Positions 37,301-39,937 of a stretch of 64,000 nucleotides of DNA are shown piece after piece. The notes under the pieces are model-generated. The model made no database searches. It saw nothing but the letters and a program-made list of their open reading frames with translations, and was not told the DNA's origin. Made by a program: the position numbers and the translations under genes. Every line of letters starts with the position of its first letter. Position 1 is the first letter of the stretch. Origin of the DNA: Ascidia mentula (taxonomy: Eukaryota; Chordata; Ascidiacea; Phlebobranchia; Ascidiidae); the NCBI GenBank assembly GCA_947561715.1, contig OX387200.1, forward strand, positions 4,466,501 to 4,530,500, in the 5' to 3' direction.

Positions 37301-39937
37301 ATGTTACTGCTCACACAAATTTTATAACTTGGTAAAATGAATTCAAATTGTACAGTATTACTTTTATAGTAGTTTCAAAATGCAATGTTTAGTGGAAGCA
37401 ATTTTGTTTTAATGCAAAATGTGATGGCGCCACTTCTAAAGTTGCTTGCGTTTTGTAACTAGGACCATTCTTATGATGGGGCGATACATCGAAGCCATTG
37501 AGGATGTACCATGTGGTAACATTTGTGGGTTGGTCGGTGTTGATCAATACTTGGTTAAAACTGGTACTCTGTCTACTTTTGACAAGGTATGTGTTGTTCA
37601 TTTACACAGGTTATTATCTTTAGCCCATATATGCAGTGCATAAACGTTGGAATATTTTTGTGGTTAACTGTGACATGTAATTATGTATTTTGTGTGATGT
37701 ACATCTTAAGAGGCGCAGACAGTAGTGAACACTGTTTCGACCTATAAGGTTTCATCAAGGTGCAGCTGGTGATTGTGGCAAAGTAGATTATAATTTGCAA
37801 GTGACTCATAATTGTTTTTTTGAATAGGCACACAACATGAAACAAATGAAGTTCAGTGTTTCTCCTGTCGTGCGTGTGGCAGTGGAGGCCAAAAATGCAG
37901 CAGATCTTCCAAAACTGGTGGAAGGACTTAAACGGTAAGTCTTCTGCAGTGTAATGGTACTTGATCATGACTGATATGCTGTTTAGATTGTCCAAGTCTG
38001 ACCCTATGGTTCAGTGCATTGTGGAAGAAAGTGGTGAACACATTGTTGCTGGGGCAGGTGAACTTCATCTTGAGATCTGTCTGAAGGATTTGGAGGAAGA
38101 TCATGCTTGCATTCCCTTAAAGGTGTGTATTCAGGAGCAATCACTTTTTACCCAATTTTGTGGCAAAAATTTGTATATGGCATCTAACAAATGCTGTATT
38201 TTGTGTAAATTTCACTGGACAGTCTTGTCAACTGAAATTTTTTACCTTTAGATCAAATTTAACAATTTCTTCCTCTACTTTCAGAAATCCGATCCAGTTG
38301 TGTCTTACCGTGAAACTATCTTGGACGAGTCTAGTCAAATGTGTTTGTCGAAAAGTGCGAACAAACATAACCGCCTCTACATGAAGGCCAGACCAATACC
38401 AGATGAGCTGTGCAAGGACATTGATGACGTAATATTGTCCACATAATCTAAAACACTAGTCCCAAACTAACCAGATGCCTGACGTTCATGCAGGGTAAAG
38501 TTGCCCCAAGGCAAGATTTCAAGACCCGTGCCAGGTATTTGGCTGATAAATATGATTTCGATGTGAACGAAGCCAGGAAGATTTGGTGCTTTGGCCCGGA
38601 AATCACTGGACCCAACTTACTGATTGATTGCACAAAGGGTGTGCAGTATCTGAATGAAATGAAGGATTCTGTAGTAGCTGGATTCCAGTGGGCTAGCAAA
38701 GAGGTAATACAGGACATTCCAGTTAAAACTATTGCATTTTTACGAACTTGTTGTTAATAAAACTAGTTTCGTTGCTTAGTTGTGTGAAGAAGTTTGTCAG
38801 CATTCTAGAACATTATTTCGTTTTTCTGATCTCGACGTTTAGCTCTCACATCAGTTTAATTTTTGTAACAGGGAGTTCTGTGTGAGGAAAACATGCGTGG
38901 AATTCGTTTTGACATCCACGATGTCACTTTGCACACCGAATCCGTCCATCGTAGTGGAGTTCAGATAATCCCAACAGCTCGTAGAGTTCTGTATGCCTCC
39001 CAGCTCACAGCCCAACCAAGGATTCTTGAGCCTGTGTATCTTGTGGAAATCCAGGTGCAAATTCACCTTCATTCGTAAATTTTTTAGAATGTCAATCGAA
39101 TCATGGTGGATACAACGGAAAGGTTTTTGAGCTAAACTTAATTAAATATCAGGACACTAAAAATGACTTAAACAAAGCTAAACGTATGGACAAACTTGAG
39201 AACTAACACTCGTATTTCCTCAGACGCCCACCTGATAAACAGGAACCAATCTTAGAAATAAGGTTGGTTTGGCTTTCCTGCTTATGTATTGCGTCATTTC
39301 GTTTTAGTGTCCAGAAACGGCTGTCGGTGGAATTTACGGATGTCTCAACAGACGTCGTGGCCACGTTTTTGAAGAATCTAATCAGTCAGGCACGAATATG
39401 TTCCAAGTGAAAGCGTATCTGCCAGTCAACGAATCGTTTGGTAGGTGTAGGTCAAATTACCTGCCGTTTCTCATGCCTCTGTGCTAAATTCATATACTGA
39501 GTCAAATGCTCTGAACCGTTTTTTTTCACGCGGCCCGAGCAAAAACGGATCATATTTTGACGTAATATATAATATAAGAACTACAACACACCGAAACTAA
39601 ACATACAATTGGTAATTTTTCTCCTAAAACAGTTTTTAGATGACCAAACTTTGGGTCGCGACCCACATGGTTCCGAAACACTGCACTAGGTCATGTAGCT
39701 GTACATTGCGAAAGTGCGTTAACTTCCTTTTTTACGATTATAGGCTTCACCGCCGACTTACGCTCACAAACAGGGGGGCAGGCATTCCCACAAGCAGTGT
39801 TTGACCATTGGCAAATCCTGCCTGGCAACCCCTTGGCTGAAGGCACCAAACCCCATCAAGTTGTCAAGGCAACCAGAGCCCGAAAGTCGCTCAATGAGAA
39901 TGTTCCTCCGCTCGACAGATTCTTGGATAAATTGTAG
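34343..39937 (+). CDS. EEF2: Eukaryotic elongation factor 2, copy b, with altered diphthamide loop
   Basis: A second full-length 840-aa eEF2 with all sixteen exons the same length as in copy a: 34343-34345, 34412-34626, 35669-35850, 35965-36173, 36286-36519, 36677-36790, 36846-36984, 37065-37260, 37463-37586, 37828-37934, 37987-38122, 38285-38428, 38494-38703, 38872-39054, 39308-39440, 39744-39937. The GTPase motifs [14 protein letters not shown] and NKMD and the eEF2-kinase site are intact, so it looks functional. The diphthamide loop, near-invariant in eukaryotes, reads [12 protein letters not shown] instead of [12 protein letters not shown]: His about 697 is kept, but glycines 699 and 701 are Ser and Val. 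Other differences cluster in exons 6, 12 and 13. It may be a specialised isoform or an eEF2 that is poorly diphthamide-modified. AATAAA at 40029-40034 is its likely polyadenylation signal. Confidence 0.92.
34658..35102. mobile_element. 445-bp foldback element in EEF2 copy b intron 2
   Basis: The left end (CGACTTCGCGTGAACAATGG, then GTCTGACGTCACAATG) is mirrored at the right end (CATTGTGACGACAGACCC, then ATTGTTGACGCGAAATCG). The inverted similarity continues inward on both sides to near the centre. Essentially the whole element is a long imperfect hairpin. No ORF. Related fragments lie at 31548-31704 and 34111-34241. Copy a has no such element in the matching intron, which explains the longer intron here. 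Confidence 0.75.
35483..35545 (+). other. tRNA-like fragment in intron 2
   Basis: CGTGAGGTCAAACCTCACG forms a perfect T-arm-like hairpin with a B-box-like core, preceded by AGCTCCAGCAGCTCGG. The acceptor and anticodon arms do not pair convincingly. It could be the head of a tRNA-derived SINE or chance; compare 55441-55514. Confidence 0.3.
39641..39683 (-). mobile_element. hAT-like terminal sequence
   Basis: On the minus strand it starts CAGTGTTTCGGAACC and continues to GGGTCGCGACCC, which resembles ends of hAT transposons (CAGTG, then a GGGTCGCGACCC palindrome). No second end or 8-bp duplication was found, so it is at best a remnant inside the last intron of EEF2 copy b. Confidence 0.4.

Follow-up and report, generated by a model that had tools for sequence, protein, structure and literature searches.

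Two genes for the elongation factor eEF2 lie in the 64,000-nucleotide (nt) stretch of the Ascidia mentula genome analysed here (the window: contig OX387200.1, positions 4,466,501–4,530,500, forward strand; coordinates below count from its first letter). Copy a is canonical. Copy b keeps the diphthamide histidine within an altered loop: its core reads HRSGVQ, and the conserved eukaryotic HRGGGQ is kept in copy a, not in b. HRGGGQ is a typical trait of eEF2 rather than a defining one (archaeal EF2 has HRGPAQ). What, then, is a second eEF2 with such a loop? The favoured reading of the DNA, at about even odds, is that copy b is a maintained second translocase taking diphthamide poorly or not at all. 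The role of diphthamide is still debated, and a canonical and a tip-altered translocase in one animal offer a natural within-organism comparison that otherwise needs engineered mutants. How each copy keeps the reading frame, at which stage or in which tissue it is used and whether it is modified could be followed separately. Published work is cited for those parts of it that were available.

The two genes

The principal features are as follows.
14551–19820, + strand: copy a, canonical eEF2 gene of 16 exons, with a second possible start exon (ATG/GT) at 14829
18953–19135, + strand: copy a, exon 14
19010–19045, + strand: copy a, canonical diphthamide loop, in frame in exon 14
34343–39937, + strand: copy b, eEF2 gene from ATG to stop, 16 exons, first exon inferred
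34343–34345, 34412–34626, 35669–35850, 35965–36173, 36286–36519, 36677–36790, 36846–36984, 37065–37260, + strand: copy b, exons 1–8
37463–37586, 37828–37934, 37987–38122, 38285–38428, 38494–38703, 38872–39054, 39308–39440, 39744–39937, + strand: copy b, exons 9–16
38285–38428, + strand: copy b, exon 12, with S566L and P578A (mammalian 584 and 596) and second tip loop SANKHN
38872–39054, + strand: copy b, exon 14 of 16, with silent-site divergence (dS) from copy a of 0.115 outside the loop and saturated silent sites within it
38929–38964, + strand: copy b, diphthamide loop, residues 691–702, in frame in exon 14, His 697 codon at 38947–38949

The genes lie about 20 kb apart on one contig and on the same (+) strand. 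Each encodes 840 residues, of which 774 are identical and 66 differ, and copy b matches eEF2 over its full length (phmmer, residues 1–840; best chain 7oya, 1532 bits). A preliminary description of the window had reported that all sixteen exon lengths and the other GTPase motifs are preserved; the modelled lengths are indeed equal in 16 of 16 exons, and the motifs printed for comparison are the same in both copies. So is the segment that we take to hold the eEF2-kinase threonine. All 30 introns of the two genes are GT-AG, a result that is partly by construction, as splice signals and reading frames guided the manual placing of exon boundaries. In both genes the first exon, of 3 nt, is inferred.

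Searched in six frames with copy a, the genome (195.8 Mb, 79 contigs) yielded 38 matches. They comprise the exons of a and b, plus weaker ones at 38–66% identity on contigs C70 (SNU114-like), C67 (2.82–2.83 Mb, EFL1-like) and C1. The SNU114-like and EFL1-like names rest on resemblance. No third eEF2 was found in this search.

The domain IV tip of copy b

Re-reading exon 14 gives the loop coordinates, the histidine codon, Ser at +2 and Val at +4 just as first described, together with the changed residues preceding the histidine. Relative to copy a, six of the 12 residues in the loop are replaced, glycine +2 among them. The diphthamide histidine itself is kept: His 697 aligns with mammalian His 715 (mammalian numbering in domain IV is the window residue plus 18, from the alignment, so that Pro 578 becomes 596). 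The changes are concentrated. Fifteen of the 23 nucleotide differences in exon 14 fall within the 36 of its 183 nt that form the loop (hypergeometric P = 2.7e-7), and the densest run of amino-acid differences between the copies, six in nine residues, is equalled in 11 of 2000 random placements.

Sequence error or a haplotype was considered and ruled out by these 15 differences in 36 nt, which include silent ones, and by the presence of both genes on a single contig, 20 kb from each other. No additional canonical exon 14 turned up close to copy b in the six-frame search, where exon 14 was matched by copies a and b (90% and 71%) and, at 48%, by the C70 gene. Another EF2-like gene as donor of the altered loop was rejected too, since the SNU114-like gene (L113) keeps HRGGGQ. 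Diphthamide is not known from SNU114-type proteins. That this gene nevertheless keeps the motif suggests that the loop glycines probably have a structural role as well.

The altered positions coincide with sites of known effect. Four mutations of mammalian eEF2 block diphthamide formation: Gly717Arg, Gly719Arg, Ile714Asn and Ser584Gly (PMC2816718). Copy b differs at all four sites (S584L, I714V, G717S and G719V) and copy a at none. If the 66 differences fell at random over 840 residues, a complete overlap would have a probability of 3.5e-5, or 3.3e-4 within exons 12–16; both figures overstate the case, because three of the four sites are adjacent in one divergent loop. The second loop of the domain IV tip is changed too, from SPNKHN to SANKHN at residue 578. 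The resulting P596A is the counterpart of yeast P580, which is reported to contact helix 69 and to lie near the modified histidine H699 (PMC9830224, PMC11651573). Mutation of residue 596 to His leads to spinocerebellar ataxia 26, and yeast P580H raises −1 frameshifting (PMC11651573). Given the loop changes and this change close to the modified histidine, copy b is altered on both loops of the domain IV tip, the closeness of the two loops being taken from the papers. The tip residues were not found by name in PMC8674143.

Divergence is also lopsided. When the 66 differences are polarised against 7oya, 30 look derived in b and 16 in a, and 20 do not resolve. At 159 C-terminal positions that are invariant in 7oya, yeast and 9rvu, copy b departs at 22 and copy a at nine, with eight shared, so that 14 departures belong to b alone against one to a alone (binomial P = 0.001).

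Maintenance of the reading frame

Could copy b be a gene on its way out? The argument that it has lost its original start, and that conversion from a masks decay, draws on the 5' end: where copy a has its distal start codon followed by a donor (ATG/GTAAGT at 14551), b has ATT/ATAAGT, and conversion refreshes much of the gene. A proximal ATG/GT nevertheless stands directly before exon 2 in both genes, the one at 14829 in a aligning with that at 34343 in b, and copy a may itself start at either the distal or the proximal site. Across 840 codons the frame of copy b has no stop and no frameshift.

Whole-gene divergence between the copies (NG86) is dS 0.312 and, at replacement sites, dN 0.048, a ratio of 0.155. 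This is not near 1, the value at which the preliminary description would have given up its reading; the single average nonetheless hides a mosaic, since it pools converted with old exons. In the unconverted exons 12, 13, 15 and 16, dN is 0.088 against a dS of 0.686, a ratio of about 0.13. A broken frame and a dN/dS near 1, as in a decayed pseudogene, are thus not found in copy b. The two genes also share an upstream element.
33855–33876, + strand: 22-nt upstream element TTGCGCAACGCTTGCTACGTCA of copy b, at two exact places in the genome, each upstream of an eEF2 copy
14428–14449, + strand: the 22-nt element as it stands upstream of copy a, differing at one base
The element TTGCGCAACRCTTGCTACGTCA stands upstream of both eEF2 genes and has no further exact match in the 196 Mb genome. 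We take it to combine a C/EBP-like palindrome with a CRE-like half. Its unique occurrence at both genes favours a promoter retained in copy b. In copy a, 229 nt separate the stop codon from a poly(A) hexamer (AATAAA or ATTAAA); in copy b the distance is 92 nt. Low dN/dS, an intact frame and the shared element together support the earlier view that copy b is not decaying; it is under purifying selection, and incipient loss is highly improbable.

Gene conversion and the unconverted loop

Silent divergence between the copies differs from exon to exon. Exons 2–5 and 7–11 combined have a dS of 0.146, well below that of the unconverted exons, and in exon 6 silent sites are saturated (dN 0.21). Alignment identity does not exceed 60% in thirteen of the 15 introns, and many are of unequal length; intron 6 aligns at 69%, and intron 10 is identical over 52 of 52 nt, within a longer identical stretch.
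37891–38010 in copy b and 17862–17981 in copy a, + strand: identical 120 bp spanning intron 10, recent gene conversion
This exon mosaic, the diverged introns and the identical intron 10 make an old tandem duplication with repeated gene conversion the simplest account of the pair.

Exon 14 repeats the pattern on a smaller scale. Silent changes amount to 8.5 of 8.8 sites in the 12 loop codons and 4 of 37.6 elsewhere in the exon (Fisher P = 1.3e-5, counts rounded to 8/9 and 4/38). Runs of 34 nt straight after the loop, of 33 nt upstream with few differences between, and of 51 nt further on are identical. The low flanking dS against a saturated loop indicates conversion on either side of the loop but not within it. 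Selection against a-type loops in copy b would explain why the loop has stayed unconverted. Positive selection within the loop was considered and dropped, its silent sites being saturated. The earlier suggestion of a specialised translocase stands as a reasonable inference, to which the sparing of the loop from conversion and the accompanying changes at further known sites add strength.

Tolerance of the loop to change

A number of observations weigh against a second translocase that takes diphthamide poorly, and they bring in the chief competitor of this reading: that b is an ordinary dosage copy, still modified, whose tip drifted within the tolerance of the ribosome and the diphthamide enzymes, the conversion tracts having ended there by chance. 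Exons 6, 12, 13, 15 and 16 are also unconverted, so the loop could be just a tract boundary. Codon usage does not separate the copies (G+C at third codon positions, GC3, 0.449 and 0.458), and transcription of copy b is a prediction. Compared with the published mutations that block diphthamide, the substitutions in b are milder; the Ser584 site is Glu in yeast, and loop position −4 is Thr in 7oya. Most changes of yeast P580 are viable, including Ala, which gives the weakest antibiotic phenotype of those compared, for example against P580D and P580F (PMC9830224).

Archaeal EF2 adds to this. The sample comprised the best 80 of 564 relatives by similarity to a typed N-terminal query, a choice that makes it lean to few euryarchaeal groups. 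Seventy-eight of the 80 loci are readable (L036 included; L023 and L039 end before the loop), and counts at −1 and −2 are from 77. The loop reads HRGPAQ or HRGPSQ in all 78. At position +4, 76 have Ala and two have Ser; Val stands at −1 in 30 of 77 and Ser at −2 in 11 of 77. At the level of the family, then, neither Val −1 nor Ser −2 conflicts with bearing diphthamide. With the yeast Glu and the 7oya Thr, these residues imply that copy b may still be modified. Archaeal tolerance therefore weakens, without removing, the case that b is unmodified. It also qualifies the preliminary statement that the loop of copy a is near-universal: four of the five aligned eEF2 rows, all except b, have it (one position being A or T), yet glycine +4 cannot be called universal.

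Glycine +2 is another matter. It is kept, with the tip proline, in 78 of 78 readable archaeal proteins, and Ser +2 occurs in no row other than copy b. Change at half of the loop residues, this glycine included, and the excess of departures at invariant positions speak against a mere dosage copy. Second eEF2 genes in sea urchin (PMC11088918), Arabidopsis (PMC9273596) and yeast (PMC6193676) fit such a copy; on balance it seems fairly unlikely.

The diphthamide pathway

Is there machinery to modify either protein? Profiles PF01866, TIGR00522, PF01902 and PF05207 all score above their cut-offs in the genome; the search covered the pathway apart from DPH7. DPH1 (C1:1882553) is one intronless frame of 443 codons with its cysteines present, DPH5 lies at C1:9425754 and DPH6 at C67:6750497. 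Contig C52 holds two CSL zinc-ribbon loci that fit DPH3 and DPH4. With DPH1, 2, 5 and 6 and DPH3/4-type genes in the genome, copy a can be expected to carry the modification. One reservation applies: the DPH2 copies are without three of the four Fe–S cysteines.

Both DPH1 and DPH2 have features of their own. The intronless DPH1 frame (L003, C1:1882553–1883461) is possibly a retrocopy that replaced the original gene. DPH2 is present in at least five tandem copies, 27–66 kb apart (L107–L111, C1:25014528–25179109), the sole DPH2 genes found. In five of five copies, read across an inferred splice junction, the yeast Cys-Cys pair 106/107 is Tyr-Asp, Cys 128 is Ser and Cys 362 is kept; the copy at L110 looks altered directly past this last cysteine. 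A composite protein, assembled from parts of at least two copies, passes TIGR00272 (244.9, cut-off 184.05). In yeast, the DPH2 C106,107S double mutant nearly abolishes diphthamide, some ADP-ribose acceptor signal being left (PMC11048331).

A proposed origin and its relation to known systems

A second translocase poor in diphthamide could have arisen and persisted as follows. (i) An old tandem duplication would have yielded a working second eEF2, its domain IV tip remodelled around the diphthamide histidine. (ii) The diphthamide enzymes would modify copy b poorly or no longer. (iii) The animal would then own two translocase pools, a diphthamide-bearing one from a and a diphthamide-poor one from b, if, as presumed, b is expressed and the second pool used. 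(iv) Gene conversion would hold the GTPase body of b near that of a, and selection would keep its tip different. A bolder version is tentative and falls well short of even chances: two lasting eEF2 pools, with and without diphthamide, selection holding the altered tip against conversion, and a DPH pathway itself remodelled, as in the tandem DPH2 array without three of its four Fe–S cysteines, so that diphthamide would be an optional and regulated feature of translocation.

Why might copy b be kept? A filter feeder encounters many marine bacteria. One suggestion is that b persists because diphthamide-targeting bacterial toxins do not ADP-ribosylate it, so that translation continues when copy a is inactivated. 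Hamster cells heterozygous for Gly717Arg are a precedent, but toxin exposure and the ADP-ribosylation state of b are conjectural, and escape of this kind would be a reason within the two-translocase explanation rather than a separate anatomy. It seems improbable; stage-specific use is another possible reason.

Related pairs help to place the locus. Yeast EFT1 and EFT2 encode the same protein and form a dosage pair. Copy b resembles them in being one of two eEF2 genes per genome (PMC6193676), as it resembles Arabidopsis At3g12915 (PMC9273596) and the sea urchin isoforms (Belle 2011, as cited in PMC11088918) in being a second eEF2 gene or isoform in a eukaryote; unlike here, an altered diphthamide loop goes unmentioned for the latter two in the available parts of PMC9273596 and PMC11088918. 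Some archaea without diphthamide genes have second EF-2 paralogues that lack the diphthamide residues (Narrowe 2018, as cited in PMC10307638). As there, a second EF2 gene stands beside a canonical one and its loop residues are changed; here, in contrast, the host is an animal whose genome has DPH1, 2, 5 and 6 and DPH3/4-type genes, and copy b retains the histidine. The presence of diphthamide genes places copy b outside that class, though it may work alike. The mammalian blocked alleles share with b the residues hit and the coexistence of normal and altered eEF2 in one cell; they were selected in the laboratory and carry other residues, whereas copy b is a germ-line paralogue under purifying selection (PMC2816718). 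No report of a tunicate eEF2 pair was among the literature matches listed, which leave most subscription journals outside their coverage, so that one may have been published.

Neighbouring genes and other observations

Between the eEF2 copies lies a single open frame of 2801 codons (22684–31086, − strand) with a Rav1p_C match, presumably DMXL/rabconnectin-like. Four tandem frames of 264–492 codons with major facilitator superfamily matches lie upstream of copy a (1372–12278, − strand). Nine pattern matches to viral contigs included no relative. The cox1 frame on contig C79 is open with TGA read as Trp; code 13 (AGR = Gly), the ascidian code, gives conserved cox1 motifs such as GGFGNWLLP and so marks the host as a tunicate, where code 5 gives SGFSNWLLP.
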